Assembly: GCF_001541095.1 (NCBI RefSeq) | Contig: NZ_LMXH01000001.1 | Coordinates: 2,109,382-2,173,381 of the forward strand | Source: Paenibacillus sp. FJAT-26967 | GTDB taxonomy: Bacteria > Bacillota > Bacilli > Paenibacillales > NBRC-103111 | Length of the DNA stretch: 64,000 nt | Direction: 5' to 3' | The notes under the pieces: generated by a model | Databases searched by the model: none | What the model was told of the DNA's origin: nothing | What the model saw: the letters and a program-made list of their open reading frames with translations, nothing else | Shown here: positions 16,981 through 58,068 of the stretch, in pieces | How the letters are laid out: each line of letters opens with the position of its first letter | Position numbering within the stretch: the stretch's first letter is position 1 | Program-made: the position numbers and the translations under genes

Positions 16981-17014
16981 TATTCGTAACTTATTCCGAT
17001 TGGAGGTTATTTCT

Positions 17015-23778: not shown

Positions 23779-23782
23779 ATTG

Positions 23783-24637: not shown

Positions 24638-24649
24638 GGAGGGATAACG

Positions 24650-25714: not shown

Positions 25715-25718
25715 CTAG

Positions 25719-25970: not shown

Positions 25971-25973
25971 GCG

Positions 25974-27155
25974 ATGATTGCTCAGACATGCGCTTCTGCC
26001 GCCCAAATCATAGAGGAGGCTAAAATTTTTGCCGCCCGGGAAATCCGGCCGATCGCAGGGGAAATCGACGTCAAAGGCGAGCTTCCCCGCAGCTTAATTG
26101 GCAGAATGGGACAGCGGGGATATCTGTCGGCCAGCTGGCCGGAGGAATACGGCGGTCTGGGACTGGACCCGGTGGCCTATGGACTATTTACAGAGCAGAT
26201 CGGCAAAGCATGCTGCAATACGAGGGCTCTCATAACCGTTCAAACCTCACTGCTGGGAGAGACTATACTGCGTTTCGGCACAGAAGCGCAGAAAAGATAC
26301 TGGCTGCCGCCAATGGCGAGGGCCGAGAAGCTGGGCGCGTTCGCCTTATCGGAGCCAAATGTGGGCTCGGATGCGAAAAACGTTCAGACCGCCTACCGCA
26401 AAGAAGGGAGCCATTATATTCTGAATGGCACCAAGAAGTGGATTTCTTTCGCCGCTATCGCTGATTTTTTCGTCGTGATCGCAGCCGATTCGGGCGGGCA
26501 AATCACCTCATTCATCGTCGAGCGCGAACGTGAAGGGGTGCATACAATCCCGATGCCCGGCATGCTCGGCAACCGGGCGGCTCATATTGCGGAGATTCAG
26601 CTTAATGAAGTGAAGATCCCGGCGGAGAACGTGCTCGGAATCGTTGGCGGAGGCTTTACTTATATTGTATCCACGGCGCTTGATCACGGCAGGTACAGCA
26701 TTGCATGGGCAGGAGCGGCAATTGCAGGCGAGGCGCTGGAAGCGATGGTTGCGTACTCGATATCGCGGTCCCAGTTCGGTGAGAAGCTGCACCAGTTCCA
26801 GCTGATCAAAGGGCTGATTGGCGATGCGGTCACCAAGGTTCATGCCGCGCGAACGCTTTGCATTGCCGCAGGTGAAATGCGCAAAAGCGGGGCGGCGGAA
26901 GCGGTTGACGAGACAGCGATCGCCAAATATTTTACATCGAAGGCGGCTGTTGAGGTCACTAACGATACGGTGCAAATACACGGTGGCAACGGTTGCCGCA
27001 GCGGTTACCCTGCCGAACGGTTATTCCGGGAAGCCAAGGTGCTGGAAATTATTGAAGGCACCAGCCAAATTCAGCAGCAGGTCATTTCTCAATACGGACT
27101 TCGCAAGTATGCGGTGAAGAAGCAGGAGGAAGTTCGAACAGGAAAGGATGTGTGA
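25974..27155 (+). CDS. Acyl-CoA dehydrogenase-like enzyme of hydroxymalonyl-ACP synthesis
   Basis: A 393-residue flavoprotein of the acyl-CoA dehydrogenase family: SASWPEEYGGLGLDP near the N-terminus, GAFALSEPNVGSDAKN (FAD/substrate signature), GTKKWISFAAIADFF, and QIHGGNGCRSGYPAERLFRE with EGTSQIQ at the C-terminus. In zwittermicin, ansamitocin and xenocoumacin pathways such an enzyme completes oxidation of the glyceryl-ACP intermediate. Three bases separate it from the ACP gene, and its end overlaps the next gene. Confidence 0.92.
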   Translation: MIAQTCASAAQIIEEAKIFAAREIRPIAGEIDVKGELPRSLIGRMGQRGYLSASWPEEYGGLGLDPVAYGLFTEQIGKACCNTRALITVQTSLLGETILRFGTEAQKRYWLPPMARAEKLGAFALSEPNVGSDAKNVQTAYRKEGSHYILNGTKKWISFAAIADFFVVIAADSGGQITSFIVEREREGVHTIPMPGMLGNRAAHIAEIQLNEVKIPAENVLGIVGGGFTYIVSTALDHGRYSIAWAGAAIAGEALEAMVAYSISRSQFGEKLHQFQLIKGLIGDAVTKVHAARTLCIAAGEMRKSGAAEAVDETAIAKYFTSKAAVEVTNDTVQIHGGNGCRSGYPAERLFREAKVLEIIEGTSQIQQQVISQYGLRKYAVKKQEEVRTGKDV

Positions 27156-36387: not shown

Positions 36388-36419
36388 GCGGACCCGGAGG
36401 AAGAAAGGGAGGAATAGTG

Positions 36420-42000: not shown

Positions 42001-43770
42001 AACGATCAGGCGTATCGGATCGATCCGGGGCAACAAGAGCATTATACCCGGCTGCTGCAATATTTGAAGGAAGCTGGCACAATACCAGATCGCATTGTTC
42101 ATGCCTGGCTGACTGAGGAGAGCGTCAACACCGAAGGATGGAGCTATTCCCACAGCACAAGAGTACTGGGTAAAGGCTATCACAGCCTCATTGCACTGGC
42201 TCAGGCGATCGGGACGTGCGGACTGCAAGAAGAGCTGCAGCTTACGGTCATAACTTCCAATATGCAAGAGGTGACAGGAGAAGAGCAGCTGATGCCGGAA
42301 CAAGCAGCGGTGCTCGGTGCATGCCTCGTCATTCCGCAAGAGTACGGCAACGTGCGCTGCCGCAGCATTGATATTGCGGATTCGCTGCGGCAGGAGGATT
42401 CGGAACATAGGCAGCAATCTCTGCTAGACCGGCTGCAAGCCGAATTAACCGCTTTTTCCGCCGACATTTTCGTCGCGTATCGCGGCCCGAACCGTTGGGT
42501 GCAGACCTACGTTCCAATTCCGGTTCCTTCCGTTGACGAAGCGAATTCCGGTCTCAGGAAAGAGGGGGTTTACCTTATAACCGGAGGCTTGGGCGGTATA
42601 GGAATGACCTTGGCGGAGCATCTGGCGAAGACTGTGAAAGCGAAGCTTATACTCGTAAGCCGTTCGGGAATAGGCGGCGAAGAGGACTGGCGTCACTGCG
42701 CCAAACATACGGCCGACGAAACTCTGGCGATTCAACTGAATAAGCTGGAGGAGCTGGAGCTGTATGGGGCTGAGGTGCTTGTCTGCAAAGCAGATGTAAG
42801 CGATGAGCAGCAAATGGAGCAGGCCGTAGCTCGGGCTCTCGAACGCTTCGGAGAGATTCACGGCGTCATCCACGCGGCCGGAACGGCCGATGGAGCGCTG
42901 ATCCAGCGGCGGACTCGGGAAATTGAGGAACGTGCATTGACGGCCAAGGTAAACGGCACGCGTGTCCTCGAGCGGGTGCTGGCCGGAAGGAAGCTGGACT
43001 TCCTACTATTGTGCTCTTCTCTGACCAGTGTGCTCGGCGCCCTGGGTCAAGCGGGGTATTGCGCGGCCAATGCGTTTCTCGATGCTTATGCCTACCGCAA
43101 ACGCGCACTGGACGATACGCATGTCGTCGCGGTTGATTGGGACGGGTGGCAGACCGTCGGAATGGCTGCTGCGGCTGAACTGGAAGTCGCCGTCGCTGCG
43201 GCGCAAGCGGGAGTGTCCGCTCAAGGTGCGGACAAGCAGACCCGGCTGCTTCCGGAGGAAGGAATCGCTGTTTTCCGGTATGCACTGGCCTGCCGTCTGC
43301 CCCAGGTAACGGTATCGACGACGGATTTGGGTCTGCGGCTGCATGCCGCCCGCACTTCATCCCTGCAATCCATTGTGGACGGGGAGCGGAGCGGAATTTC
43401 CGCCAGAGCCGAACGTCCCGATGTCAGCACGTCTTTTGTGATTCCCGAAGACGAGCTGGAGCAGACTTTAGCTGAGCTTTGGCGGGACTATCTGGGTATC
43501 GATGGAGTCGGTCTGCATGATAACTTCTTCGAGCTGGGTGCTACCTCGCTTGATATGATTCAAATGAATTCCAAGATCCAGCGTTCACTTAAGCAGGAAG
43601 TGTCGGTCGTTGATATGTTCAGCCATCCGACTATCTATACACTCGCTGGCTTGTTGCGAAGAGCGCAAGCGGGAACTGATCGGCAGGAAGAGACGGCGGA
43701 CCGCACAGAGCTGATAAAAGACGGAAAGCACAGGCTGCAGAAGCGGCTGCAAAAACGGGATAGAACGTGA
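39037..43770 (+). CDS. PKS module 1 of the isocoumarin line, KS-AT-KR-T
   Basis: A 1577-residue type I PKS. KS (15-435; ACSTS Cys near 184, EAHGTGT, NIGHLNSAAG), AT (about 535-830; GHSAGE near 631, TSHAFHSAMMEP near 728, the malonyl-CoA signature), KR (GGLGGIG near 1184, CSSL and GYCAANAF with Tyr near 1340) and T (LGATSLDMIQ near 1505). The KR would reduce the Leu carbonyl to the hydroxyl that later forms the lactone. There is no dehydratase. It overlaps the previous gene by 11 bases, so the two are co-translated. Confidence 0.93.
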   Translation: MMTKSRQTQAATGLEIAVIGMAGRFPEARNLDEYWDNLRNGRESIHFFSDSELEAAGVDPELIRSSRYVRAKGLVPDAEWFDSDFFDYSPREAEVIDPQLRIFHECAYEALEHAGYDTEQTSGAIGLFAGASSSIYWQLVAMLSRSESTAEQFAALALSDKDFLSTRISHKLNLKGTSVSVDSACSTSLLAIHLASRALLTGECRIALAGGVTVTVPRTEGYLYEEGMVSSPDGHCRAFDSNAKGTVGGEGAGVVVLKPLKQALADGDAIYAVIKGSAANNDGTRKMGYSAPSVEGQAEVIRAAQRMSRVAPESISYIEAHGTGTALGDPVEIEALKLAFQTDKTGYCRIGSVKTNIGHLNSAAGVAAFIKTVLALMHKQLPPSLHFEKPNPKIDFAGSPFIVNTELTSWTNELHPLRAGVSSFGIGGTNVHVVLEEAPPRAERAQGRDSQLLLLSAKTESGLEQATARFREYLRSNPGLSLPDAAYTLQIGRRAFKHRRMLVSSSAEETLALLDTLPPERVYSRAGDNEQPRLIFMFPGQGAQYVNMGLDLYNRELEFRVAADRCFDFIRPLMDVDLKDLMYPAASEAAGDHNDRLKQTDVTQPAMFIFSYALAQLLIGWGLKPASMIGHSAGEYVAACLAGVMTVEEALELVVLRGKLMHSMPEGAMLSVPLPERELIPFMNEGLSLAAVNGPAMCVVSGPHEAIELLEEKLTEKGQACTRLQTSHAFHSAMMEPAMDPFRQKLIGMKLQDPDIPYISNVSGSWITKEETVDPDYWTRHLRGTVRFGDGLRELLLDEKAVFVEVGPGNTLSAFVRRHPDKKERHAVFNLVRHVKEQARDDYYLQQQVGRLWLEGARPDWKAYHANEQRQRTALPTYPFERRRYWVDPPFETDVLKQGLVRKQTKQPKPSNAAGLVKKDAVRDWLYTPIWERSLLNEEAVAAAGMNAASSWLVFAPEHGICSRLAAGLLQAGHRIVSVYPSDSFVRLNDQAYRIDPGQQEHYTRLLQYLKEAGTIPDRIVHAWLTEESVNTEGWSYSHSTRVLGKGYHSLIALAQAIGTCGLQEELQLTVITSNMQEVTGEEQLMPEQAAVLGACLVIPQEYGNVRCRSIDIADSLRQEDSEHRQQSLLDRLQAELTAFSADIFVAYRGPNRWVQTYVPIPVPSVDEANSGLRKEGVYLITGGLGGIGMTLAEHLAKTVKAKLILVSRSGIGGEEDWRHCAKHTADETLAIQLNKLEELELYGAEVLVCKADVSDEQQMEQAVARALERFGEIHGVIHAAGTADGALIQRRTREIEERALTAKVNGTRVLERVLAGRKLDFLLLCSSLTSVLGALGQAGYCAANAFLDAYAYRKRALDDTHVVAVDWDGWQTVGMAAAAELEVAVAAAQAGVSAQGADKQTRLLPEEGIAVFRYALACRLPQVTVSTTDLGLRLHAARTSSLQSIVDGERSGISARAERPDVSTSFVIPEDELEQTLAELWRDYLGIDGVGLHDNFFELGATSLDMIQMNSKIQRSLKQEVSVVDMFSHPTIYTLAGLLRRAQAGTDRQEETADRTELIKDGKHRLQKRLQKRDRT

Positions 43771-43783
43771 AGGAGGTGGCAAG

Positions 43784-46700
43784 ATGAGTGCCGAGAACGA
43801 AAAGTACGGAGAAACCGGTTTGGAAATTGCCGTTATCGGAATGGCAGGAAGATTTCCGGGCGCGAAGAACCTGGCGGAATTTTGGGAAAACTTACGTGCC
43901 GGCAAGGAATCGGTCACTTTTTTTACGGATGAAGAGCTGCAGAAGGCAGGAATTGCTCCGGAGATGCTCAAGCATTCCCAGTATGTAAAAGCAAAGGCTC
44001 AGATTGAGGATGTCGAATCGTTCGATGCGCCGTTTTTTGATTACACGCCGCGAGAAGCCGAGCTAATCGATCCGCAGTTCCGTCTGTTCCACGAATGTGC
44101 CTGGGAGGCGCTTGAGAATGCGGGGCACCCTCCCGAATCCGAGGATCAACTGATCGGTGTGTACGCGGGAGCTTCCCCTAACACATATTGGGTTGCAAGC
44201 CAAGTTATGAATGCTGCCCATGCCAGTGATCATTTTCAAATTCTGCAATTGAATAATCCTTCGTTTACGACACGGATTTCGTACAAGCTGAATTTGAAGG
44301 GTCCTAGCGTCAGCGTGCAAACGGCTTGCTCCACCTCTCTGGTATCCATTCATCTGGCTTGTCAGGGACTGCTGGCCGGCGAATGCGATCTCGCCTTGGC
44401 CGGAGGGGTTTCGGTCAATTTGCCGCGCACTACCGGCTATTTGTACCAGGAGGGGATGATCCAGTCTCCCGACGGCCACTGCCGGCCTTTTGACGAAGGC
44501 GCGAGCGGAACCTTGTTCGGCGACGGAATCGGAATCGTCGTGCTGAAGCGGCTCGCAGACGCCGTTAGGGATGGCGACGAAATTCATGCCGTTATCAAAG
44601 GCTCGGCGGTTAACAATGACGGCAGCCGGAAAGTAGGGTACACGGCCCCAAGCACGAACGGCCAGGTGGAAGTCGTTCGCGCGGCACACCAGATGGCTGA
44701 GGTTGAGCCGGAAAGCATCGGTTATATAGAGGCGCACGGAACCGGGACTGTACTTGGGGACCCGATCGAGGTGGAGGCTCTGCAGACTGCATTCGCTACG
44801 GATAAAAAGGGCTTTTGCAAAATCGGTTCACTCAAATCCAATATCGGTCATTTGGATGCCGCGGCAGGAGTCGCGGGCTTCATCAAGGCTGTACTGGCGA
44901 TTAAGCATCGGCAAATCCCGCCAAGCCTTCATTTTCATAAACCGAATCCCAAAATCGATTTTGAAAATTCTCCCTTCAGGGTTAATTCAGAGCTTAGCGA
45001 TTGGAAAAGAACGGAAGGTCCTCTGAGAGCAGGTGTCAGCTCATTCGGTATCGGGGGTACGAATGCCCACGTCATCTTGGAGGAGGCCCCGATTGGGGGA
45101 GGGAGTTCGGCCAGCCGCGATTTGAAGCTGCTTGTGCTTTCTGCCCGGACAGAGGAAGGACTGGAGCGCGCGACTCGCAATCTCGGCGAATTTCTGCGGA
45201 CTTGCCCCGAGGCCGACCTGGCAGATGTGGCTTATACACTGCAGACGGGACGCAAGCGATTCCGCTGGCGCAGAACATTCGTATGCTCCAATGTTCGTGA
45301 AGCTGTGGATCGCTTGGACAAGCCTGCCGAAGGCAGCGTGTACACGGACGAATCGGAAAGAGATCAAGCCAAGGTTATTTTCCTCTTTCCGGGGCAGGGC
45401 TCGCAGTATGTGAATATGGGAGCTGATTTGTACCGCAAGGAGCCGCTGTTCCGGGCGGAAATGGACCGCTGCTGCGAGATCATTACAGCACAGGGCGGCG
45501 CCGACCCAAGGGATTTGCTGTACCGGGCCCCGGATAGTGCGGATAGCGCGGCAGCGGCTGACAGGATCAACCAGACGGAAGCGGCACAGCCGGCATTGTT
45601 CGCGTTCGAATATTCGCTCGCGCAGCTATTGATGTCGTGGGGCGTCAAGCCGCATGCAATGATCGGACACAGTATCGGAGAGTACACGGCTGCTTGCCTG
45701 TCGGGTGTACTGTCGCTCAAGGACGCGCTGAAGCTCGTCACGCTGCGCGGCAAGCTCATGCAGAGCCTGCCGCCGGGAGAAATGCTGAGCGTATCCCTCT
45801 CAGAAGCAAGTCTGTTAGAGCTTCTTCCGGACGAATTAGCGCTGGCTGCCGTCAATAGTCCGGAGCTATGTGTTGTTTCCGGCGCTCATGCTGCCATCGC
45901 TTCCTTTGAAGCCAAACTTACAGGGCTGCAGGTGGTGCACCGAAAGCTTCATACGTCGCATGCGTTTCACTCGGCCATGATGGAGCCGATATTGGAGGAG
46001 TACGCGGACAAAGTCAAGGAGGCAGACCTCTTTGCTCCTTCGATCCCGTATGTATCCAATGTGACGGGGACATGGATAACGCCGGAAGACGCCGCTGACC
46101 CCGCATATTGGACGCGGCATTTGCGGGAAACGGTACGGTTTGCAAGCGGGGCGGCTGAGCTGCTCAAAGAGAAGCAGGCCGTATTTATTGAAATCGGGCC
46201 CGGCAATGTTCTCAGCAGCTTCATTCGTAAACAACAGGGGAAGGACACAGAGCGTAAGCATGAAGTGCTCCATCTCGTCCGTCATCCCCAGGTACAATCC
46301 GCGGACGATGCTTTCTTACTAGAGAAGATAGGCAAACTGTGGATTGCGGGTGTGCGGATTGATTGGAAAGAGTATTACGACTCGGAACGCCGCCGCAGAG
46401 TTGCTCTGCCGACCTATCCGTTCGAACGCCAGCGTTACTCTGTAGAGGGCACACAAATTTCATTGGGAAGCGTGCACGAGGCAGCGGGTTTGCGGAGACC
46501 GGGCCGTCCAGAAACGGAGACCGGGAACGAAGCCGTTAAACAACCGACAGAAGCTGCCCGATTGTTGCCCGCATCAGCTATTGAGCAGACGGTTACTGAG
46601 CTTGTCCAGAGTCATTTCGGATTTGCGCATATTGGGATAAATGACAACTTTTTTGAAATCGGGGCAAGCTCGCTCGATATTTCCCAGCTGGCTGACAAGC

Positions 46701-49700
46701 TTGCGGGAGTGTTGGGCAGGGAAGTGCCCGTGGTTACCTTGTATTCCTACCCTTCTGTCCGCACCCTGGCGGCATTCTTGCGTGAGAACGGACAGGAAAC
46801 CGAGGCAGCGGTTGAAGAGGCCGGAGAGCGCCGGAATGTCATTGCCGAAGGTATGGCGCGTTCCGAGCGGATGAGGACAATTTCCGTCCGGGAAAGAGAT
46901 CTGCGCGGGACGGGGGAACAAGCGAAGCGTGAAGCCGCCGGGGAGAACGGACTTGAGATTGCGGTCATAGGTATGGCCGCCAGATTCCCTGGTGCGGACA
47001 GCATCGGCCAGTTCTGGCGCAATTTGCGCGACGGCGTGGAGTCCATCACATTCTACACGGACGAAGAGCTGGTGCAGGCAGGCGTTGACCCGCAGCTGGT
47101 ATCCCATCCTTCCTATGTAAAAGCCAAAGGCGCTTTGAACGGGATCGATCAGTTCGACGCCGCGTTTTTCGGTTATTCTCCGCGGGAAGCGCAGCTTATG
47201 GACCCGCAGCTGCGGCTGTTCCACGAATGCGCATGGGAGGCGATCGAATCGGCCGCCTACAATCCCGACACCTATCCGGGACTTATCGGCGTCTATGCGG
47301 GGGCAACTCCGAATCTGGAGTGGGTTTCCCGCTTTGCGGCTGCTTTGGGCGGAACGGAACGATTCAGCGCTATGCTACTTAACGACAGGGAATTTTTCAG
47401 CACCCAGCTGTCTTATAAACTCAATCTTCGTGGTCCCAGTATTTCTATGCAGACCGCCTGCTCCACGTCTCTGGTTAATATCGTTCTAGCCTCGCAAGGG
47501 TTGCTGGCAGGTGCGTGCGACATCGCGCTGGCCGGCGGCTCCACTGTCAGCGTACCGGATAAGTCCGGCTACCTGTATGAAGACGGCATGATTCAATCGC
47601 CGGACGGGCATTGCCGGGCTTTCGACGAGCAGGCGGCAGGGACTGTTTTCGGAGACGGTGTCGGTGTCGTCATCCTGAAGCGGCTTAGTGATGCCATTGC
47701 GGATGGGGATGTGATCCACGCCGTTATCAAGGGCTTCGGCTTGAACAATGACGGCACCCGCAAGGTAGGCTTTACCGCTCCGAGCACTAAGGGACAAGCC
47801 GAGGTAATCCGTGCGGCACACCGGATGTCGGGTGTAGAGCCTGAAAGTATCACCTATGTAGAAGCGCACGGAACAGGCACAAGCATGGGGGACCCCATTG
47901 AGATCGAAGCTTTGAAGGAAGCCTTTGGCACCGATAAGACGGGATTTTGCCGAATCGGATCAGTCAAGACGAACGTCGGTCACCTTAACAGCGCTGCCGG
48001 AGCAGCGGGATTCATCAAAACGGTGCTGGCCCTGAAAGAGAAGCAGATTCCGCCGAGTCTTCATTATCAACGGGGAAACCCCAATATTGACTTTGTTAAC
48101 AGCCCGTTCGTCGTCAATACAGAACTGGTGCCATGGGAAAGCAGCCGTTATCCCTTGCGCTCCGGAGTCAGCTCATTCGGCATCGGTGGCACGAATGCGC
48201 ACGTTATTCTGGAGGAAGCTCCCTCAAGAGAGCCGTCGGACGCAGGCCGGGCAGAGAAACTGCTGCTTTTGTCGGCCAGAACGCCTACAGCATTGACAGA
48301 GTCGAAATCGCGACTGGCTGCTTTTTTAACAGAGCATCCGCAAGTGAATCTGGCAGATGCGGCGTATACGCTGCAAGCAGGCAGGAAGGCTTTTGAATGG
48401 AGAGCCGCATTCGTGTGCAAGGATGCGGGAGAAGCGGCCGCCATATTGAGTTCGAACGGGGCCGATAAAATTGCCGAAGGCCAAACGGAGGCGCAAACCC
48501 GATCTGTCGTATTCATGTTCCCCGGCCAGGGTTCGCAGTACGTTGGCATGGGACGGGAGCTCTATCGCAGCGAACCTGAATTCAAGGAGGAGCTTGATCG
48601 CTGCTTCGAGCTCGTTCAACCGTATATGCAGGTTGACTTAAAGGCCTTACTGTATGCTGACGAACCGGACCAAGCGGTGCGGGAGGATCTCCTGATGCGG
48701 ACGGATATCGCGCAGCCTGTGCTCTTTATGATCGAGTATGCGCTTGCCAAGCTGCTCATCCGATGGAGCATCCGGCCGGAAGCGATGCTGGGCCACAGCA
48801 TCGGCGAATATGTGGCAGCATGTCTGGCGGGTGTATTCACGCTGGCAGATGCGCTGCAGCTCGTAGCGCTTCGGGGCCGTCTCATGCAGGGGCTGCCGGC
48901 GGGATCTATGCTCAGTGTGGCGATGCCGGAAGCGGAACTCCGCGCATTATTGCCTGATCATCTTGCGCTGGCGGCAGTCAACAGCTCCTCCTTGTGCGTT
49001 GTTTCCGGCACGTCGGAGCAGATCCAAGCATTCTCACGGCTGCTGGAAGACCAAGGCTGCGCCTGCCGTCTTCTTCACACATCTCATGCCTTTCATTCTC
49101 ATATGATGGATCCGATACTGACAGCATTCGCGGACCAAGTTCGGTCTATCCCGCTGAAAGAGCCGCTGCTGCCCTTTATTTCCAATGTAACCGGCACTTG
49201 GATCACACCGGAGGAAGCTTCGGATGCGGATTACTGGGTCAGGCATTTGCGATCGACTGTGCGGTTTGCGGACGGGCTTGCGGAACTGTTGAATAACCCG
49301 CGCTCTGTATTCATTGAAGCCGGTCCGGGTAATTCGCTCAGCACGTTCGTGCGTAAGCATGAAGCAGGATCACGTGAGCGGATTATTGTCAATATGCTGA
49401 GACATCCCCAGGAAGCCGTATCTGATACTGAGCATTTGTTGAACAAAATCGGACGTCTCTGGCTGGCGGGTATCGACATCGATTGGACGGGCTATTACGC
49501 CCATGAACGGCGCAGACGAATCGAGCTGCCAACCTATCCGATGGAGCGCCAGCGCTATTGGCTTGATGATGAACAGCAGCCGTTACCTGGAGCACGTTCT
49601 TCCTCGGCGCGAAGAGGCGGTAAGAACCCCAATATGGCGGACTGGTTCTATTATCCTTCCTGGGAACGTGCCTTGCTGGAGGAGCATCCGGAAGAAAGGC

Positions 49701-51583
49701 AGCAGAACGGACACAATTGGCTTGTATTCACGGATAATTGCGGCATCGCGGACGAATTGGCTGCATGTGTTCAGAGTGAGGGAGACCGTGTCGCGATGGT
49801 TAAGGCGGGTAACGCATTCGGTGCGCATGAGAATGGAACGTTCACGCTTGTCCCGGGATCTGCAGAGCATTATATCCGGCTGCTGGATGAGCTGCGGAAA
49901 CAGGATTTCGTACCCGACAGAGTCGCTCACCTTTGGAATGTTTCTTCCTCTGGGGAGGAAGAAGAGGAAAAGGAATACTCCGATGCGGAGGCGATTGAAC
50001 GCCGTCAGCAAGAAGAGGGCTATTACAGTCTGATCTATTTGGCTCAGGCACTGCGCAAGCATAAGGAAGCAGAGGCCGTCCGTATAGCAGTCGTGTCTTC
50101 AGGGATGCAGGAAGTAACGGGGATGGAGAGGCTGTCTCCGGGTAAAATGACGCTGCTCGGCCCATGTATGGTCATTCAGCAGGAATACAGCGGAATTACA
50201 TGTGTAAGCATTGATATTGATGTACCGCAGGAGGCTAAGCATAGACGGCGAATCGCTGGCAATGTCATCGGGGAATTATCGGCTCCTTCCTCGGATCTGC
50301 TCACCGCTTATCGGGGGAATTACCGCTGGGTTCAGAACTTCAAGCCGGTGGGACTACGCCAGTCGGATACCCGGGCGGCTCCATTTCGGGAGCAGGGTGT
50401 ATATCTGATTACGGGAGGGCTCGGAGGAATCGGAATGCTGACGGCAGAGTTCCTGGCGCGAAATTACGGTGCTCGGCTCATTCTTACCGGACGTTCAAGC
50501 TTTCCCGAGAGGGAGGAATATACGCGCTGCCTGGCCGAACACGAGGAGGAGCATCCGCTCGCCCGCAAAATCAGGCGTGTGCTGCATTTGGAAGAACTCG
50601 GCGCTGAGGTGACCTATTTGCAGGCCGACTTGTCCAATGAAGAACAGATGAGCCGTGTCTTCAAGTTCATAGACTGTGAATATGGCCGCCTCCATGGGGT
50701 TGTGCAGGCGGCGGGTCTTCCAGGCGGAGAATCTTTCCGCGCAATTGAGAATATCAGCGGAGACCAGTCCGACGAGCAGTTCCGCGCCAAAGTCCAGGGT
50801 TTGCAGACGCTGGGCAGGCTAATTGCCGACAGGGAAGCGGAGATATGCATCCTGTTCTCCTCCATTGCCAGCATACTCGGAGGACTCGGATTCAGCGCTT
50901 ATTCGGCAGCGAATTTGTACATGGATGCCTTTGCCCGCAAACAGAACCGGGCAGGCGGTACGAAGTGGTTGTGCGTCAATTGGGATGCGTGGGAGTTCTG
51001 GGAAGAGCACCGCTCAACGATCGGGGAGTCGCTTGTCGAATTGGCGATAACGCCTGCCGAGGCGCCTGATTTGTTCAGGTACGTCTACAGTCCATGCGGC
51101 AGCAATCAAATTATTGTATCTACCGGTGATCTTCAGAAGCGGATCGATCAATGGATCCGACACGCGGGCAAGCAGGAAGACACTCATGCGGCAGGCAGCG
51201 CTTCATTCAGCAGGCCGAACCTGACCACACCTTATGCGGCACCACGTAATCGGGTCGAGAAGACGATAGCGGAGGTGTGGAAACAATTTTTCCGTATTGA
51301 CGAGGTTGGTATCCACGATAATTTCTTCGATCTGGGAGCAAGTTCACTGGATATGATTCAAGTGACCGCCAAACTAAATGAAGCGTTGGACGAGAGTATT
51401 GCCGTTGTTGATATGTTCACCTATCCAAGCATTCATGCGCTAGCTCAACGCCTTACACCCAGCGAAGAAGACGAGGCGGAGGAGGCGGAGATGGAAAATC
51501 AAATGATCGACTCCGCTGCGAAAGGAAGAAAGCGGCAGCAGCAGCAAAAAGAAAAAAGACGCAAAGGAGAGGTCTTGCTATGA
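43784..51583 (+). CDS. Bimodular PKS, KS-AT-T (module 2) and KS-AT-KR-T (module 3)
   Basis: A 2599-residue type I PKS. Module 2: KS (TACSTS near 182), AT (GHSIGEYTAACLSG near 632, TSHAFHSAMMEP), T (IGASSLDISQ near 965), no KR. Module 3: KS (TACSTS near 1227, NVGHLNSAAG), AT (GHSIGEYVAACLAG near 1673, TSHAFHSHMMDP), KR (GGLGGIG near 2212, SSIAS, Tyr in FSAYSAANLY near 2374), T (LGASSLDMIQ near 2521). Both ATs have malonyl-CoA signatures. Leaving one keto group and reducing the next matches the oxidation pattern needed before aldol aromatisation. ATG follows AGGAGGTGGCAAG. The Glu/Lys-rich tail (EEDEAEEAEMENQ, GRKRQQQQKEKRR) is a probable docking helix. Confidence 0.93.
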   Translation: MSAENEKYGETGLEIAVIGMAGRFPGAKNLAEFWENLRAGKESVTFFTDEELQKAGIAPEMLKHSQYVKAKAQIEDVESFDAPFFDYTPREAELIDPQFRLFHECAWEALENAGHPPESEDQLIGVYAGASPNTYWVASQVMNAAHASDHFQILQLNNPSFTTRISYKLNLKGPSVSVQTACSTSLVSIHLACQGLLAGECDLALAGGVSVNLPRTTGYLYQEGMIQSPDGHCRPFDEGASGTLFGDGIGIVVLKRLADAVRDGDEIHAVIKGSAVNNDGSRKVGYTAPSTNGQVEVVRAAHQMAEVEPESIGYIEAHGTGTVLGDPIEVEALQTAFATDKKGFCKIGSLKSNIGHLDAAAGVAGFIKAVLAIKHRQIPPSLHFHKPNPKIDFENSPFRVNSELSDWKRTEGPLRAGVSSFGIGGTNAHVILEEAPIGGGSSASRDLKLLVLSARTEEGLERATRNLGEFLRTCPEADLADVAYTLQTGRKRFRWRRTFVCSNVREAVDRLDKPAEGSVYTDESERDQAKVIFLFPGQGSQYVNMGADLYRKEPLFRAEMDRCCEIITAQGGADPRDLLYRAPDSADSAAAADRINQTEAAQPALFAFEYSLAQLLMSWGVKPHAMIGHSIGEYTAACLSGVLSLKDALKLVTLRGKLMQSLPPGEMLSVSLSEASLLELLPDELALAAVNSPELCVVSGAHAAIASFEAKLTGLQVVHRKLHTSHAFHSAMMEPILEEYADKVKEADLFAPSIPYVSNVTGTWITPEDAADPAYWTRHLRETVRFASGAAELLKEKQAVFIEIGPGNVLSSFIRKQQGKDTERKHEVLHLVRHPQVQSADDAFLLEKIGKLWIAGVRIDWKEYYDSERRRRVALPTYPFERQRYSVEGTQISLGSVHEAAGLRRPGRPETETGNEAVKQPTEAARLLPASAIEQTVTELVQSHFGFAHIGINDNFFEIGASSLDISQLADKLAGVLGREVPVVTLYSYPSVRTLAAFLRENGQETEAAVEEAGERRNVIAEGMARSERMRTISVRERDLRGTGEQAKREAAGENGLEIAVIGMAARFPGADSIGQFWRNLRDGVESITFYTDEELVQAGVDPQLVSHPSYVKAKGALNGIDQFDAAFFGYSPREAQLMDPQLRLFHECAWEAIESAAYNPDTYPGLIGVYAGATPNLEWVSRFAAALGGTERFSAMLLNDREFFSTQLSYKLNLRGPSISMQTACSTSLVNIVLASQGLLAGACDIALAGGSTVSVPDKSGYLYEDGMIQSPDGHCRAFDEQAAGTVFGDGVGVVILKRLSDAIADGDVIHAVIKGFGLNNDGTRKVGFTAPSTKGQAEVIRAAHRMSGVEPESITYVEAHGTGTSMGDPIEIEALKEAFGTDKTGFCRIGSVKTNVGHLNSAAGAAGFIKTVLALKEKQIPPSLHYQRGNPNIDFVNSPFVVNTELVPWESSRYPLRSGVSSFGIGGTNAHVILEEAPSREPSDAGRAEKLLLLSARTPTALTESKSRLAAFLTEHPQVNLADAAYTLQAGRKAFEWRAAFVCKDAGEAAAILSSNGADKIAEGQTEAQTRSVVFMFPGQGSQYVGMGRELYRSEPEFKEELDRCFELVQPYMQVDLKALLYADEPDQAVREDLLMRTDIAQPVLFMIEYALAKLLIRWSIRPEAMLGHSIGEYVAACLAGVFTLADALQLVALRGRLMQGLPAGSMLSVAMPEAELRALLPDHLALAAVNSSSLCVVSGTSEQIQAFSRLLEDQGCACRLLHTSHAFHSHMMDPILTAFADQVRSIPLKEPLLPFISNVTGTWITPEEASDADYWVRHLRSTVRFADGLAELLNNPRSVFIEAGPGNSLSTFVRKHEAGSRERIIVNMLRHPQEAVSDTEHLLNKIGRLWLAGIDIDWTGYYAHERRRRIELPTYPMERQRYWLDDEQQPLPGARSSSARRGGKNPNMADWFYYPSWERALLEEHPEERQQNGHNWLVFTDNCGIADELAACVQSEGDRVAMVKAGNAFGAHENGTFTLVPGSAEHYIRLLDELRKQDFVPDRVAHLWNVSSSGEEEEEKEYSDAEAIERRQQEEGYYSLIYLAQALRKHKEAEAVRIAVVSSGMQEVTGMERLSPGKMTLLGPCMVIQQEYSGITCVSIDIDVPQEAKHRRRIAGNVIGELSAPSSDLLTAYRGNYRWVQNFKPVGLRQSDTRAAPFREQGVYLITGGLGGIGMLTAEFLARNYGARLILTGRSSFPEREEYTRCLAEHEEEHPLARKIRRVLHLEELGAEVTYLQADLSNEEQMSRVFKFIDCEYGRLHGVVQAAGLPGGESFRAIENISGDQSDEQFRAKVQGLQTLGRLIADREAEICILFSSIASILGGLGFSAYSAANLYMDAFARKQNRAGGTKWLCVNWDAWEFWEEHRSTIGESLVELAITPAEAPDLFRYVYSPCGSNQIIVSTGDLQKRIDQWIRHAGKQEDTHAAGSASFSRPNLTTPYAAPRNRVEKTIAEVWKQFFRIDEVGIHDNFFDLGASSLDMIQVTAKLNEALDESIAVVDMFTYPSIHALAQRLTPSEEDEAEEAEMENQMIDSAAKGRKRQQQQKEKRRKGEVLL

Positions 51584-54500
51584 GCATATCGAACGGTAGC
51601 GACTATAACGGATCGGAAATTGCCGTAATCGGCATGTCGGGCAGATTTCCGGGAGCCAAAAACTTGCGGGAATATTGGAATAATCTCTGCAGCGGCAAGG
51701 AAAGTATCTCTTTTTTCAGTGACGAAGAGCTGCTGGAGGAAGGCATTGATGTGTCGGCGGTGTCTCACCCCAATTATGTAAAGGCCAAGGGAGTACTCGA
51801 TGATCTCGAGTACTTCGATCCCGAATTCTTCGATTATACACCCCGCGAAGCGGAGCTAATGGATCCGCAGTTCCGTCTTATGCACGAATGCTCCTGGGAA
51901 GCGCTTGAACAAGCGGGGTATGATCCCAGAACATACAGAGGCTCAATCGGGTTATATGCAGGCGCGGCTTTCAATTCCAACTGGTTCATGCGCGCGTTCA
52001 AAGGGCTGGGGACAGCGGAGGAATCCGCCACCCTGGAGACGGCTATGCTGAATCTGCGCGATTATATGGCCACGCTCGTTTCCTATAAGCTGAATATGAA
52101 GGGACCGAGCTTTACGGTGCAGACGGCTTGTTCCACATCGCTCGTCGCCATCCATCTGGCCTGTCAAAGTCTGCTTAGCGGAGAGTGCAGCATGGCGCTG
52201 GCCGGAGGAGTGTCGATACAGCTGCCTAAGAAAGCCGGTTATTTTTATCAGGAAGGCATGATTAATTCGCCAGACGGTCACTGCCGGGCCTTCGATGAAA
52301 AAGGGGCAGGTACCGTCTTCGGTGAAGGCGCCGGGATTGTCGTCCTGAAACCGCTGGAGGATGCGCTTGCGGACGGAGACCATATATACGCTGTAATTAA
52401 AGGTTCAGCGATCAATAACGACGGCAGCAGGAAAGTAGGCTATACCGCTCCGAGTACATCAGGTCAGGCATCCGTAATCCGTGCCGCGCATCATATAGCT
52501 GAGGTGGAGCCGGAAAGCATCTCCTATATCGAAGCACACGGCACAGGCACGACACTTGGCGATCCAATCGAAATCGAAGCGTTGAAAACCGCTTTTCAAA
52601 CGGACAAGAAGAGATACTGCGGCATCGGCTCGGTTAAGTCCAACATCGGGCATCTAAACAACGCAGCAGGGGTAGCGGGATTTATTAAAACAGTGCTTGC
52701 TCTGGCCCATAAGCAGCTGCCTCCTACACTTCACTATGAACGGCCGAATCCCAAAATAGACTTTGAGAACAGCCCATTCTATGTCAACGACCGGTTAAAA
52801 GACTGGTCCAACGACTCCTTCCCGCTTCGGGCCGGCATCAGTTCTTTTGGCATCGGCGGCACGAATGCCCACATTGTCCTGGAAGAAGCGCCGCCGGCTT
52901 CCGCTTCCTCTACGGGCAGGTCGGCGCAGCTCATCTCCCTGTCGGCTAAGACGGAAGTGTCGCTCGACAAACTGACGGAGCGTATAGCACTGCATTTGCA
53001 GGAGAACCCCGGCGTATGCTTAGCCGATTTGGCGTATACACTCCATGAGGGACGGGCGGCTTTCCCGCATCGCAGAACGCTTGTCTGCGGCAGCGCGAAT
53101 GAAGCGGCCATGCTGCTGGCTCAGCCCGGATCATCCGATGTCCAGAGCGGATTTGCCGCAGCCGATGCACCGCCGGTCGTATTCATGTTTTCCGGACAAG
53201 GCTCGCAATACACCGGAATGGGCAGGGAATTGTATGAGCAGGAGCCGGTGTTCCGGGAGGAGGCGGACCGCTGCTTTGAGCTGTTGCCAGATGAGATCCG
53301 CCATGAAGCGAAGCGGGTTCTATATCCATCCGCCGATGATCCCGATACGTCACTTATTAACCGGACTGACATTGCCCAGCCGGTCCTGTTTACGGTCGAA
53401 TATGCACTTGCCAAGCTCATGATGAAATGGGGTGTACAGCCGCAGGCCATGATCGGGCACAGCATAGGTGAATACGTCGCCGCATGTCTGGCAGGCGTAT
53501 TCTCGCTGGAGGATGCGGTGCGGCTCGTTACTCTTCGCGGTCGATTGATGCAGAGTCTGCCAAGCGGTCTCATGCTGAGCGTCCCGCTGACGGAGCAGGA
53601 AATTCTTCCGCTGTTGTCCGGCGGCATATCACTGGCTGCGGTGAACGCTCCTTCTATGTGCGTTGTTTCAGGCCCTTCGGAAGCGGTTGAATCATTGGCC
53701 TCTTCCTTGGAAAAGAAAGGAATCGAATGCCGTGGTCTACACACGTCACACGCATTCCATTCCGCCATGATGGAACCGATTCTGGAGCCCTATGAGCGCG
53801 AGGTCGGCAAGCTTGTGCTGAACGCACCGCAGTTGCCCTTCATTTCTAACGTCACGGGGACTTGGATCCGGGATGAGCAGGCAATCGATCCCGTTTACTG
53901 GGCACAGCATCTGCGCGGTACCGTACGGTTCTCCGACGGACTCAGCACCCTGCTGGCCGAGATGGACGCTGTGTTTGTAGAGGTTGGAGGAGGCAATGCT
54001 CTGACCGCATTTGCGAAGAGCCATAATGAATTCTCCAAGAGCTCAGCCAAGGGGAATAAGGAGCTCCTTATTGTGAATCTGATACGTCACCCGAAGCAGA
54101 ATACGTCTGATATCGCTCATCTTCTTCTTCAAGTGGGACGTTTATGGAATGCCGGCCTAAAAATAAACTGGACCCGCTTCTACGGGGATGGGAAGAGAAA
54201 CCGTATTCCTTTGCCGACTTATCCGTTTGACCGCCGCCGTTACTGGCTCGATGAAGAAGGAATCCGGATCGTCCACACGGACTCACCGGGGGAGAACGCA
54301 GGACAAAGCCCCGTTACGGAGCGGAATGACCGGAAAGAGGCGCCAAAAGAATTATCGGAACCGAGCAACCCGCTTGAAGAGACGTTGGCCGGCATATGGC
54401 GCAATCTGTTCGGCCTGGAGGATATCGGAATTCACGAGGATTTCTTCGAAATAGGCGGTCATTCTTTGAAAGCGACCAGCCTGGTCACCAAGATTCACAA

Positions 54501-57500
54501 GGAACTTGATGTGGAGCTGACTCTGTCGGATATATTCAACATGCCGACGATAAGTGCACTTGCCCGTCATATCGGGCAGATGGCTAAGAATAAATATTTA
54601 GCGATCGAACCGGCGGAGAGCAAACCTTACTATCGGTTGTCCTCTGCACAGAAACGTACGTTCCTCATTCATCAGCAAATCGGCTCGGTAACTACATACA
54701 ACATGCCGATGGCTTTGTGGGTGCACGGGAAAGCGGAAGCGGATCGTTTTGAGCAGGCTTTCATTAAATTGATTCACCGTCATGAGAACATGCGAACCTC
54801 GTTTCATATGGTAGATGGAGAACCGGTTCAGCGTATTCATGAGAATTTCGTGTTTACCGTTGAACGCCTGGACGCGGACGAAGAGGACTTGAAGAAAATT
54901 ATGCGGAAGTTTATCAGGCCGTTCGACCTGGGCCAAGCCCCGCTTATTCGCGCCCTTTTTGTCAGAATAGAGCCCGAGAAACATGTGCTGTTTATGGATA
55001 TGCACAATATTGTTTCGGACGGCGCTTCAATGAATGTGTTTATCAAAGAATTCAGCGATCTGTATGCCGGGAAAGATCTTCCTCCTCTGCGCATTCAATA
55101 CAAGGACTTCGCGGAATGGCAGCACCTCCTGTTGAGCGGGGACGTTATTCGGAAGCAAGAGGAATATTGGATGAATCAATTCCGGCACAATATCCCCGTG
55201 CTGAACATGCCGTATGACTTCGAGAGGCCCGAATTCCAGTCCTTTGTCGGCAGAGCGCACAAGATTAACATCTCGAAGGAAACCGCAGACCGGCTGAACG
55301 CTTTGGCCAAATCGCAAAATGTCACGATTAACGTGCTTTTGTTTCATCTATATACGATTGTACTGCATCAATATACCGGCCAGCATGACCTTACAGTCGG
55401 CTCTCTGGTGGCCGGCAGGCGGCATGCCGATGTGGAGCCTTTAATAGGCATGTTCACGAACTTCCTGCCGATCCGGGTCCGGTTCCAAGACCGGATCAGT
55501 CTTCTCGACCAACTGCTTGTTCTGAATGACACGATGATGAACGCCTATGAGAATCAAGATTTTCCATTCGACCGGATGGTAGAGAAGCTATCGGCGAAAT
55601 TACCGCGCGGACGTAATCCTCTGTTCGATACCATGATGATTTTTCACAATGAATTTGATGGAAACACCGTGCTTACCGCCGAAGGACTTACCTTCGAGAA
55701 TTTTGAGATTACGAAAGGAATTTCCAAGCTCGATTTCAAACTCGATATCGGTTATGCGGATGATGGCGGACTGCTCTGTGTCATGCAGTACAATACTGCT
55801 TTGTTCGCCGAAGCTACTATGGCCGGACTCATGGGACATTTTACGGATCTGATTGAACTGGCGCTGGACAACCCGGCTATCGAATTGAGAGAAGTCCGGC
55901 TGCTTACCGATGAGCAAGAGGCCGAAGCGGCGGCCAAACGAAGCAGCTCGCTGCCGGAGCGTGTCCTTAACGTAACGGCCGTCTCTACCTTTACTGCGGA
56001 TCCGATCCGCCCCTATGTCAGTTGGTGGGGAGAGCAATTCGGAGCCCGCATTGATATTCTTTTTGCTCCGTATCAACAAGTGTTTCAAGAGCTTTTGAGC
56101 CCGGACAGCTCCTTCTCGTATGAAGAGGCGGCGGGACTCCTGCTCATCCGCTTTGAAGATTGGCTGCGGGATGACCGTTCTTCGGAGGCCGAGCAGATTA
56201 AAAAGCTGGAGAGGGCGCTTGCCGATCTGCTTCAGGCATTATCTGCAGGTCAAAGATCGAACCCGTTATTCGCCGGGGTGTTCCCGGTGTCTACTTCATT
56301 GGAAGTGTCTCCAGTCATGGAGAGTTATCTGGAAGAGCTCGGGAATCGCTGGAAGCGTGAATTGAAGCGGCTTGACCATGTTTACGTTATCGACTTCAGA
56401 GAGCTTGGCGCAACATTTGGCATTGAACACGTACACGATTCCACTGCAGATCAAGCTGCACACATGCCGTTCACACCGGAATTTTATGCGGCAATCGGAA
56501 CCCTTACAGCACGCCGCCTGCTCGCTTGGCAAGGACATCCGTTCAAAGTTATTGCGGTGGATTGCGACAATACTCTCTGGCGTGGAGTGTGCGGGGAGGA
56601 TGGGGCAGCAGGGGTAGCGGCTTCCGATTCTTACCGCGCGTTCCAGCGTTATCTGCTTGGCAAGCAGCAAGAAGGCATGCTTCTTGTGCTGGTCAGTAAG
56701 AACAATGAAGCGGATGTGTGGGATGTACTGGACAATCACCCGGATATGCTGCTCAAAAAAGAGCACTTTGCAGGAACGCGGATCAATTGGAGCTCAAAAT
56801 CCGAAAACTTGCTCTCGTTGGCGGAAGAACTGCAATTAGGACTGGATAGCTTCATCTTTATTGATGACAGTTCGCTGGAATGCTCCGAAGTGCAGTTAAA
56901 TTGTCCGGAAGTTCTTACGTTTCAGCTCCCTGAAGAGCGGCAAATCCCGGCATTCCTGGAACATGTCTGGGCAACGGACCGCCTGCTCGTCACGGAAGAG
57001 GATAAACGGAGAACCGAAATGTATGCCTCAGAGCGCAAACGTAGACAAGTTAAATCTTCGGCTTCTTCACTGCAGGCATTTCTCGATGAATTAGAGCTTA
57101 GAATGGGCATCTACGAAGCGGCTGACGAGCAACTGCCACGTATTGCCCAGCTCATGCAGCGTACCAATCAGTTTACGCTGAACGCGAGTATACCAGCAGG
57201 GAGGAAGCTGGAAGCCATACGGGCTGAACAGGATACGAAATGCTGGGCGATTGAAGCCTCAGACCGGTTCGGTCATTACGGACTGTCAGGAGCGGTAATT
57301 ACGCGATGCGAGAAGGACATTGTTCATCTGGAAGTCTTCCTGCTGAGCTGCCGCATTCTCGGGAGAGGAATCGAGTCGGCGGTAATCAGTTCCTTGAAGG
57401 CTTATTGCCTGGAAAGGAAGGCCGAATATATCGAGGCTGTCTGTACAATTACCGGGAAAAACGAGCCGCTGCTCGACTTTTTGAGAAAGGGATCGTGGAG

Positions 57501-58068
57501 CATTCTGGAGGAGTCCGGTCGCAGCGTGCGTTTCCGGCTTGCGGTCAAGGATATCCCAGATTCTATCCAGCATATTGAGATCTTTAACGAACCTCTGCCA
57601 GCCTCAGCAGAGCCTCAGCCTCAGCTCTCAGGCAGAGAAATTCAAGGAGAGGCCGGCAACGCTGAGGGAATGGTACGGGGTTTAGAAGAGGCGGACTGGG
57701 AAGTGGCCGTCAGTGGTGATAATCAGCAGCATCGCCATCAACTGCTTCCGCTGCAGTATTCTAACGGACCCAGACTGCTTCGGATTCCGGTGCGGGAGAT
57801 AGAAGAGAGTGCGGCTCAAAGAGCTCCGTACCGGGCTCCGTCCAACGAGACAGAGGCAGCTTTAGTGCAGATTTGGGAACGGGTGCTCGGGATCGGCGGC
57901 ATCGGAATAGATGACGATTTTTTCCGGCTAGGCGGAACGTCCCTTCATGCTGTCCGGGTTGAAGTCGAAATGGAGAAGCAAGGTTTATCGGCGGAAGGAC
58001 AGCAATTATTCAAATATCGGACGATTCATCAATTAAGTCCGTTTATTCGAATCTCCGTGATGGAATGA
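51580..58068 (+). CDS. Terminal PKS module 4 with extra tail, KS-AT-T-C*-FkbH-T
   Basis: A 2162-residue protein whose ATG overlaps the previous stop (ATGA). Domains: KS (TACSTS near 186, EAHGTGT, NIGHLNNAAG), AT (GHSIGEYVAACLAG near 629, TSHAFHSAMMEP, malonyl), T (IGGHSLKATS near 964), a full-length C domain (1010-1440), an FkbH region (about 1470-2020) and a final T (LGGTSLHAV, Ser2121). The C motif reads H1142-N1143-IVSDG, so the second, catalytic His of HHxxxDG is Asn. The FkbH region has its HAD motif intact (D1661-C-D1663-NT, LVSKNNEADVW, FIFIDDSSLE) and a GNAT-like end. No thioesterase or KR. Known isocoumarin lines stop after the fourth malonyl unit; this tail is unexplained, and glyceryl loading onto Ser2121 is the likeliest activity. 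Confidence 0.92.
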   Translation: MSISNGSDYNGSEIAVIGMSGRFPGAKNLREYWNNLCSGKESISFFSDEELLEEGIDVSAVSHPNYVKAKGVLDDLEYFDPEFFDYTPREAELMDPQFRLMHECSWEALEQAGYDPRTYRGSIGLYAGAAFNSNWFMRAFKGLGTAEESATLETAMLNLRDYMATLVSYKLNMKGPSFTVQTACSTSLVAIHLACQSLLSGECSMALAGGVSIQLPKKAGYFYQEGMINSPDGHCRAFDEKGAGTVFGEGAGIVVLKPLEDALADGDHIYAVIKGSAINNDGSRKVGYTAPSTSGQASVIRAAHHIAEVEPESISYIEAHGTGTTLGDPIEIEALKTAFQTDKKRYCGIGSVKSNIGHLNNAAGVAGFIKTVLALAHKQLPPTLHYERPNPKIDFENSPFYVNDRLKDWSNDSFPLRAGISSFGIGGTNAHIVLEEAPPASASSTGRSAQLISLSAKTEVSLDKLTERIALHLQENPGVCLADLAYTLHEGRAAFPHRRTLVCGSANEAAMLLAQPGSSDVQSGFAAADAPPVVFMFSGQGSQYTGMGRELYEQEPVFREEADRCFELLPDEIRHEAKRVLYPSADDPDTSLINRTDIAQPVLFTVEYALAKLMMKWGVQPQAMIGHSIGEYVAACLAGVFSLEDAVRLVTLRGRLMQSLPSGLMLSVPLTEQEILPLLSGGISLAAVNAPSMCVVSGPSEAVESLASSLEKKGIECRGLHTSHAFHSAMMEPILEPYEREVGKLVLNAPQLPFISNVTGTWIRDEQAIDPVYWAQHLRGTVRFSDGLSTLLAEMDAVFVEVGGGNALTAFAKSHNEFSKSSAKGNKELLIVNLIRHPKQNTSDIAHLLLQVGRLWNAGLKINWTRFYGDGKRNRIPLPTYPFDRRRYWLDEEGIRIVHTDSPGENAGQSPVTERNDRKEAPKELSEPSNPLEETLAGIWRNLFGLEDIGIHEDFFEIGGHSLKATSLVTKIHKELDVELTLSDIFNMPTISALARHIGQMAKNKYLAIEPAESKPYYRLSSAQKRTFLIHQQIGSVTTYNMPMALWVHGKAEADRFEQAFIKLIHRHENMRTSFHMVDGEPVQRIHENFVFTVERLDADEEDLKKIMRKFIRPFDLGQAPLIRALFVRIEPEKHVLFMDMHNIVSDGASMNVFIKEFSDLYAGKDLPPLRIQYKDFAEWQHLLLSGDVIRKQEEYWMNQFRHNIPVLNMPYDFERPEFQSFVGRAHKINISKETADRLNALAKSQNVTINVLLFHLYTIVLHQYTGQHDLTVGSLVAGRRHADVEPLIGMFTNFLPIRVRFQDRISLLDQLLVLNDTMMNAYENQDFPFDRMVEKLSAKLPRGRNPLFDTMMIFHNEFDGNTVLTAEGLTFENFEITKGISKLDFKLDIGYADDGGLLCVMQYNTALFAEATMAGLMGHFTDLIELALDNPAIELREVRLLTDEQEAEAAAKRSSSLPERVLNVTAVSTFTADPIRPYVSWWGEQFGARIDILFAPYQQVFQELLSPDSSFSYEEAAGLLLIRFEDWLRDDRSSEAEQIKKLERALADLLQALSAGQRSNPLFAGVFPVSTSLEVSPVMESYLEELGNRWKRELKRLDHVYVIDFRELGATFGIEHVHDSTADQAAHMPFTPEFYAAIGTLTARRLLAWQGHPFKVIAVDCDNTLWRGVCGEDGAAGVAASDSYRAFQRYLLGKQQEGMLLVLVSKNNEADVWDVLDNHPDMLLKKEHFAGTRINWSSKSENLLSLAEELQLGLDSFIFIDDSSLECSEVQLNCPEVLTFQLPEERQIPAFLEHVWATDRLLVTEEDKRRTEMYASERKRRQVKSSASSLQAFLDELELRMGIYEAADEQLPRIAQLMQRTNQFTLNASIPAGRKLEAIRAEQDTKCWAIEASDRFGHYGLSGAVITRCEKDIVHLEVFLLSCRILGRGIESAVISSLKAYCLERKAEYIEAVCTITGKNEPLLDFLRKGSWSILEESGRSVRFRLAVKDIPDSIQHIEIFNEPLPASAEPQPQLSGREIQGEAGNAEGMVRGLEEADWEVAVSGDNQQHRHQLLPLQYSNGPRLLRIPVREIEESAAQRAPYRAPSNETEAALVQIWERVLGIGGIGIDDDFFRLGGTSLHAVRVEVEMEKQGLSAEGQQLFKYRTIHQLSPFIRISVME

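Follow-up and report, generated by a model that had tools for sequence, protein, structure and literature searches.

A conserved C-FkbH-T tail with a changed condensation motif, a possible termination cassette, at the end of amicoumacin-type polyketide synthases

Introduction

Why does the synthase of a well-studied antibiotic carry a last module that should add a building block and evidently does not? The question is raised by a 64,000-nucleotide stretch of Paenibacillus sp. FJAT-26967 (contig NZ_LMXH01000001.1, positions 2,109,382 to 2,173,381 of the forward strand), hereafter the window. Its last polyketide synthase (PKS) gene, equivalent to amiM of the amicoumacin cluster, continues beyond the PKS module with a condensation (C) domain, an FkbH region and a second carrier (T) domain, together called the tail. 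The amicoumacin cluster was cloned and expressed in 2015, and this module was apparently overlooked. Release and lactonisation of amicoumacin-type chains are left unexplained in the available literature; AmiM has no terminal thioesterase (TE).

Tentatively, and with somewhat less than even confidence, we read the tail as a conserved termination cassette common to Bacillus AmiM, predicted to hold a glyceryl group during chain finishing, with the glyceryl group likely not kept in the product. A conserved, non-incorporating terminal cassette of this kind, predicted from sequence, with a diagnostic HNxxxDG motif and a partner for AmiC, is apparently undescribed.

The tail of the window synthase

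The features of the synthase gene are as follows.

51580..58068, + strand: AmiM-type synthase KS-AT-T1-C*-FkbH-T2, 2162 amino acids, in a single uninterrupted open reading frame (ORF; Pfam/NCBIfam)
54382..54573, + strand: T1, carrier of the fourth malonyl-type module, GGHS (Pfam and sequence)
54631..55923, + strand: C*, full-length condensation domain without the catalytic His (Pfam, motif, alignment)
55003..55023, + strand: HNIVSDG motif, Asn1143 for the second His of HHxxxDG (sequence, tree, alignment)
55942..57549, + strand: FkbH region, N-terminal part and HAD/GNAT-like part (N-terminal boundary by eye)
56545-57492, + strand: TIGR01686 stretch inside the FkbH region (NCBIfam)
56560-56574, + strand: DCDNT of FkbH (sequence)
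57349-57351, + strand: Cys1924 of FkbH (alignment)
57817..58029, + strand: T2, terminal carrier (boundary by eye)
57940-57942, + strand: Ser2121 of T2 (sequence)

The original prediction had placed a C-FkbH-T tail behind the last PKS module, and its coordinates and domain list were right, as one ORF encodes KS, AT, T, C, FkbH and T. Pfam and NCBIfam matches located the ketoacyl synthase at residues 13-387, the AT at 534-844, the carrier T1 at 935-998 and a full-length Condensation domain at 1018-1448 (E 8.4e-103). The FkbH part matched TIGR01686 at 1656-1971 with 269 bits (cut-off 146.65); another PP-binding stretch follows near the C-terminus, where the sequence reads GGTS. The FkbH nucleophile (HAD) motif DCDNT (1661-1665) and the serine of T2 are both in place. 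The domain search of the synthase found no terminal TE in the tail.

The second histidine of HHxxxDG is catalytic in condensation domains, as are the HAD residues in FkbH. The C domain had been described as complete; this holds for its length but not for its active site, as the motif reads HNIVSDG and the catalytic histidine is, by sequence, replaced by Asn1143.

A scan of the genome collection detected the tail in nine named Paenibacillus loci (62-92% identity) and in Paludifilum (49%). The gene was open in all ten, with an AmiL-type gene upstream in 10/10 and the same three genes downstream in 9/10; because of this, the tail is no assembly accident. An AlphaFold2 model of the tail was too poor for use (mean predicted local distance difference test score 63.3, predicted template modelling score 0.33).

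Conservation of the HN motif

For the motif comparison, we examined 228 proteins, comprising the window protein, P0245, and 119 and 107 search matches (from the best 120 of 554 and the best 120 of 303). Fifty-seven had no FkbH match, nine no room upstream, three no C match and three an unreadable motif, and these were set aside. In the 156 readable C-FkbH proteins, the C motif was HH in 130, HN in 25 and PH in one. A tree of the C-FkbH regions with 164 tips (these 156 proteins and eight locus sequences, of which at least L012 repeats a species) placed all 27 HN tips in one clade without intruders, with a support of 0.999. The node joining this clade with its nearest HH and PH neighbours had a support of only 0.512.

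Six positions (1044, 1143, 1152, 1293, 1379 and 1383) are kept in 96% or more of the HN tips and in no more than 10% of the HH tips; all six lie in C and none in FkbH. The FkbH HAD motif had been predicted to be intact, which the wider comparison bears out, with Asp1661, Asp1663, Ser1706, Lys1740, Asp1762, Asp1763 and Cys1924 invariant in 27/27 HN tips and Thr1665 kept in 26. The T2 serine was present in 25/25 HN proteins (16, 6 and 3 over three comparisons). Against eight Paenibacillus orthologs, the ratio of nonsynonymous to synonymous substitution rates (dN/dS) was 0.02-0.05 for KS and 0.12-0.19 for AT; within the tail it was 0.05-0.10 for C*, 0.02-0.11 for T2 and 0.10-0.17 for the two FkbH parts. 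It was lower for C* than for AT in 8/8 pairs. These values are rough: in half of the eight pairs, dS reaches about 1 or more for most domains, and two more distant pairs are mostly saturated. Because the FkbH residues and the T2 serine are kept and dN/dS is low, the tail is not decaying; its sequence record points to a C domain that was changed and then held under purifying selection.

The same contrast appears inside the clusters. In seven clusters of the amicoumacin type, the AmiA- and AmiI-type proteins gave four HHxxxDG matches each and no HN, whereas the tail has HN. One further HN-like match, in a PKS protein of G171, falls outside any C domain. HNxxxDG before FkbH may serve as a diagnostic mark of the cassette.

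Occurrence in Bacillus amicoumacin lines and beyond

Genome G414 shows the amicoumacin gene order from A to N, with an acyl carrier protein (ACP)-sized ORF at the place of AmiG and an APH-family kinase at that of AmiN. Its AmiM has 2136 amino acids in the order KS-AT-T-C-FkbH-T and is 48.8% identical to the window synthase over nearly the whole length; over the tail only, the window and Bacillus AmiM share 43% (about 49% for the whole protein). A protein search with the G414 AmiM returned the same architecture in B. pumilus (a cluster of 361 sequences), B. inaquosorum (181), B. atrophaeus, B. swezeyi and Priestia endophytica; in these five species, as in Paludifilum, it goes together with the HN motif. 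We took the genus of G414 as Bacillus from the 95% identity of B. pumilus AmiM to the G414 tail. The original prediction knew of no such module in this product family; the same tail in fact ends AmiM of the Bacillus amicoumacin lines. Its proposal to look for the C-FkbH-T order in other genomes was borne out in Paenibacillus, Paludifilum, Bacillus and Priestia endophytica.

In the genus of G414, the tail was full-length and without a stop in 12/44 genomes, and one more match covered KS-AT-T only. Eight of the twelve were retrieved as loci, and all eight carry the HN motif, DCDHT, SCR and both carrier serines. A tail unique to this genome or genus is ruled out by the Paenibacillus loci, Bacillus AmiM and these 12 genomes. 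The family-level search gave a full-length tail in 3/104 genomes among the matches listed, in which lone C domains dominate, and the class-level search in 4/398 genomes, with two candidates scored per genome. A search for KS-AT-T homologs gave no Bacillus AmiM among the 120 matches listed, where other PKSs swamp the result.

The hydroxymalonyl HAD gene was found in 63/392 genomes in one search and in 30/398 in another (overlapping sets), and 25 regions around such genes were read. Seven contain the tail (G315, G401, G342, G171, G344, G278 and G414). Sixteen, some of them read only in part, have another architecture (G368, G222, G306, G035, G260, G360, G500, G589, G553, G439, G716, G504, G544, G015, G510 and G540). 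The remaining two, G295 and G087, have the front genes, but the 55 kb read there show neither such a PKS nor the tail. Since each of the pairs G315/L005, G401/L022 and G342/L007 is a single genome, cluster counts from regions and named loci are not additive.

Four of these regions (L097, L100, L103 and L106, from G368, G222, G306 and G035) represent a further conserved type of cluster, in which an internal C-A-T-C-A-T-C-KR-FkbH-T protein (4,055-4,111 amino acids) is accompanied by a prodrug C-A-T-E nonribosomal peptide synthetase (NRPS). In three of them a BtrH-like gene was identified.

Published amicoumacin lines and their products

In print, AmiM is termed only a polyketide synthase, both for the amicoumacin producer B. 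safensis CB729 (2,136 amino acids; PMC12366304 Table 2) and for strain BSXE-1601 (2,142 amino acids, 99.3% to the reference WP_003240106.1; PMC7649127). These sizes match the tail-bearing architecture. TP-B0611 and strain 1779 are reported to have identical ami clusters as regards gene order and domain organisation (PMC5064115); from this identity and from its relatives, AmiM of 1779 is predicted to carry the tail as well. A search of mostly open-access text, without supplements, for a C-FkbH-T end of AmiM or for FkbH with amicoumacin found no description, and a search for the motif spelling HNxxxDG found nothing.

The 47.4-kb ami locus alone, placed in B. subtilis, gave amicoumacins A-C and O-methylamicoumacin B, and deletion of amiB gave preamicoumacins, which are amicoumacin A with an N-acyl-Asn on its amine (PMC4894447). 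Glycerate is absent from the amicoumacins and preamicoumacins as described in the available text of PMC4894447 and PMC12366304. The original prediction had suggested an ester with a hydroxy acid or a capping step. Ester-making C-FkbH-T modules are indeed known (vioprolide, PMC8949500), but the described amicoumacins lack glycerate, and the final product of amicoumacin lines is unlikely to contain an extra hydroxy acid; this judgement concerns amicoumacin and not the Paenibacillus product.

Xenorhabdus bovienii makes amicoumacin and, in the available text of PMC5055758, is without amiC. Its AmiL-M has 3,419 amino acids and AmiL of B. safensis has 2,410 (PMC12366304), so that by size AmiL-M is about AmiL plus AmiM minus the tail. 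The idea taken from this protein, that published AmiM lacks the tail, was overturned for Bacillus by G414 and the protein search.

Link between the tail and AmiC

In five HN proteins (P0090, P0266, P0267, P0270 from Tengunoibacter, and P0278), an AmiC-like domain of about 330 amino acids lies behind T2. A profile of these five fused domains was run against 788 ORFs of the fetched clusters; the top match was the Paludifilum gene that occupies the AmiC position (E 8.5e-66), followed by AmiC of G414 (E 5e-54), and both matches span nearly the full length. By these sequences the AmiC family is tied to the tail by gene fusion, and AmiC, a hypothetical protein in the published annotation available, gains a partner.

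The AmiC-type sequences have a common N-terminal Cys motif and a His region. Against a Pfam cut-off of 29.7 bits, BtrH_N scored 31.2 for the Paludifilum protein, 28.7 for P0266, 26.8 for the window relative, 23.8 for G414 AmiC, 23.7 for P0278 and 19.5 for P0090. BtrH is an ACP:aminoglycoside acyltransferase (PMC10318531), and BtrH_N is described as related closely to two papain-like families, C39 and C70; Peptidase_C39_2 was above its cut-off in G414 AmiC and the Paludifilum protein. A copy of the window relative (gene at 15958), with 62-93% identity, is present in 9/9 Paenibacillus genomes of the ten-genome set.

Gene cluster around the tail

Read towards the tail gene, the upstream genes encode first a BtrH_N-like protein and a C-A-T-E NRPS, then a beta-lactamase-fold peptidase and a thioesterase, and lastly the hydroxymalonyl set and the NRPS and PKS proteins.

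15958..16980, + strand: BtrH_N-like protein, divergent AmiC relative; His region kept, AmiC Cys motif absent (profile/alignment)
16970..21487, + strand: prodrug NRPS C-A-T-E, A-domain residues like AmiA of G414 (domain search; E is a second Condensation-family stretch that we read as E)
21505..23046, + strand: beta-lactamase-fold peptidase, AmiB/XcnG-like (domain search and comparison)
23726..27155, + strand: hydroxymalonyl set of 3-hydroxyacyl-CoA dehydrogenase, FkbH-like HAD, ACP and acyl-CoA dehydrogenase (domain search)
25719-25970, + strand: ACP of the hydroxymalonyl set (domain search)
27148..51583, + strand: C-A-T-KS-AT-KR-T-C; (partial C)-A-T; KS-AT-KR-T; KS-AT-T-KS-AT-KR-T, equivalents of AmiI, J, K and L (Pfam; same order in G414)

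This gene plan is that of amicoumacin and xenocoumacin (PMC4894447, PMC5055758). After (C)-A-T, Pfam gives four PKS modules in the window with KR, none, KR and none, the last in AmiM, and this module order is repeated in six more Paenibacillus-type clusters and in G414. The N-acyl-D-Asn prodrug NRPS and the dedicated peptidase of amicoumacin-type lines both have their match in the window. The four proteins of the hydroxymalonyl set are all present, with the substrate predicted; for the predicted hydroxymalonyl PKS module, the AT of P0002 is without the HAFHS that stands in P0001. A tail feeding the hydroxymalonyl extender was considered and dropped, since a complete separate set is present.

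The second A domain (gene 27148-36387) has residues of the D-A-F-L-V-G-A-V-I type versus the DLTK type in AmiI of G414; in this comparison, the window does not have an Asn-type second A domain as in AmiI. The A-domain code table behind the substrate assignment is one we presume to hold. Because these residues differ from AmiI, the Paenibacillus line is expected to make something other than amicoumacin, with another amino acid in the product.

Directly behind the tail gene, 58195-59415 encodes a relative of the N(4)-bis(aminopropyl)spermidine synthase BpsA (PDB 5xnc, E 8e-25), present in 9/10 loci and not in Paludifilum. A GNAT acetyltransferase (59441-59899), possibly a self-resistance gene, stands near the place of the APH-family kinase of G414 and Paludifilum. 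The same 9/10 loci carry a further FkbH-like gene (59883-60917, 344 amino acids, 232 bits), and a fourth FkbH-like gene of this genome lies outside the window (G000 C1:594958-595878, L003). Behind the cluster, in 8/10 loci, 61454-63796 encodes a dimethylformamidase-like C-terminal domain and a LamG domain.

Discussion

FkbH of C-FkbH-T modules loads glyceryl from 1,3-bisphosphoglycerate (PMC8949500). In the tail, it would load glyceryl from this donor onto Ser2121 of T2. C* would then pass the finished polyketide from T1 to the glyceryl hydroxyl as an ester, or at least dock the chain, and an attack by the chain's own hydroxyl could close the dihydroisocoumarin lactone and leave the glyceryl group behind. 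AmiC, the BtrH-like partner behind T2 in the fused proteins, may clear or reset T2. If a glyceryl group sits on T2 and is missing from the product, it is either left untouched or used and then lost. The full form of this proposal, a traceless glycerate relay in Gram-positive amicoumacin lines, in which an HN-retuned C domain and an AmiC-aided lactonisation expel the glycerate and the building block is a co-catalyst never incorporated, is speculative and on balance rather unlikely.

Several points weigh against the tail as a termination cassette with AmiC as its partner. A C domain without its catalytic histidine may not esterify anything. The cassette is apparently dispensable for the amicoumacin scaffold, because X. 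bovienii, which lacks amiC and, judged by size, the tail, still produces amicoumacin; the cassette would then tune release and not be needed for the scaffold. The AmiC relative of the window is divergent and lacks the Cys motif, and BtrH_N exceeds the Pfam cut-off in only one of the six proteins tested. Fusions with an AmiC relative also occur in P0078, which reads HH, and in P0016, whose motif is unreadable; weak matches fall in P0018 and P0021 (HH) and in P0308 and P0335 (no FkbH match). Weaker relatives occur in clusters without the tail (G504, G544, G553) and in G222-type clusters, and 5/10 genomes of the ten-genome set have further BtrH-like genes. The link between AmiC and the tail is therefore not exclusive.

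The main rival of the termination cassette is a catalytically silent tail, in which C* died once and the module persists at the end of AmiM for structure or docking. The loss of the catalytic histidine throughout the HN clade, the glycerate-free products described and the apparent success of X. bovienii without the tail all fit this view. However, the FkbH catalytic residues and the carrier serine are invariant across genera, dN/dS of C*, FkbH and T2 is low, and an AmiC-like domain fused behind a silent carrier would be pointless, so we consider a silent tail unlikely.

A classical C-FkbH-T module would esterify the chain to a glycerate that is retained in the final compound of Paenibacillus or in minor congeners of Bacillus. 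The described amicoumacins and preamicoumacins speak against it, as does HN in place of the HH found in most readable C-FkbH proteins; the vioprolide and foxicin precedents, the differing second A domain of the Paenibacillus line, and the just seven compounds identified in the 35-node amicoumacin family of B. safensis (PMC12366304) keep it in view as a quite improbable outcome. Least probable, in our estimate, is that FkbH-T2 acts in trans as a glyceryl depot, from which AmiC would hand the group on to another acceptor such as the hydroxymalonyl ACP or an amine. The acyltransferase activity of BtrH and the AmiC-like domain fused behind T2 would suit such a transfer, but the separate hydroxymalonyl set is complete, FkbH and ACP included, and X. 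bovienii has this set while lacking amiC and, judged by size, the tail.

On the reading of the tail as a termination cassette, it is a case of a non-incorporating assembly-line module, for which HNxxxDG before FkbH is the mark to find others, and collinearity would mispredict a glycerate ester for tail-bearing clusters.

Comparison with known systems

The AmiC-type proteins and fused domains resemble butirosin BtrH in sequence, matching BtrH_N and in some cases also Peptidase_C39_2 over the His region, although only the Paludifilum protein does so above the BtrH_N cut-off. The vioprolide module has the same C-FkbH-T order, with FkbH instead of an A domain (PMC8949500); the window tail, compared with it by description and not by alignment, is terminal and its C* has HN. 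In foxicin, FoxBII/FoxBIII (PKS-C-FkbH, PCP-TE) place C-FkbH directly after a PKS module, like the window; however, a TE stands at the end and a glyceryl-derived unit is proposed in the product (PMC5318452), whereas the window tail has no TE.

The closest system is AmiM of B. inaquosorum and B. pumilus, which has the same KS-AT-T-C*-FkbH-T architecture, the same HN motif and the same place in the line as the window synthase; AmiM of CB729 and of the KCTC 13429 reference are likened to it by published size and identity alone. The Paenibacillus lines differ from the Bacillus AmiM lines in the residues of the second A domain and in their divergent AmiC relative, and they carry BpsA-like, GNAT and FkbH genes where G414 and Paludifilum carry the APH-family kinase.

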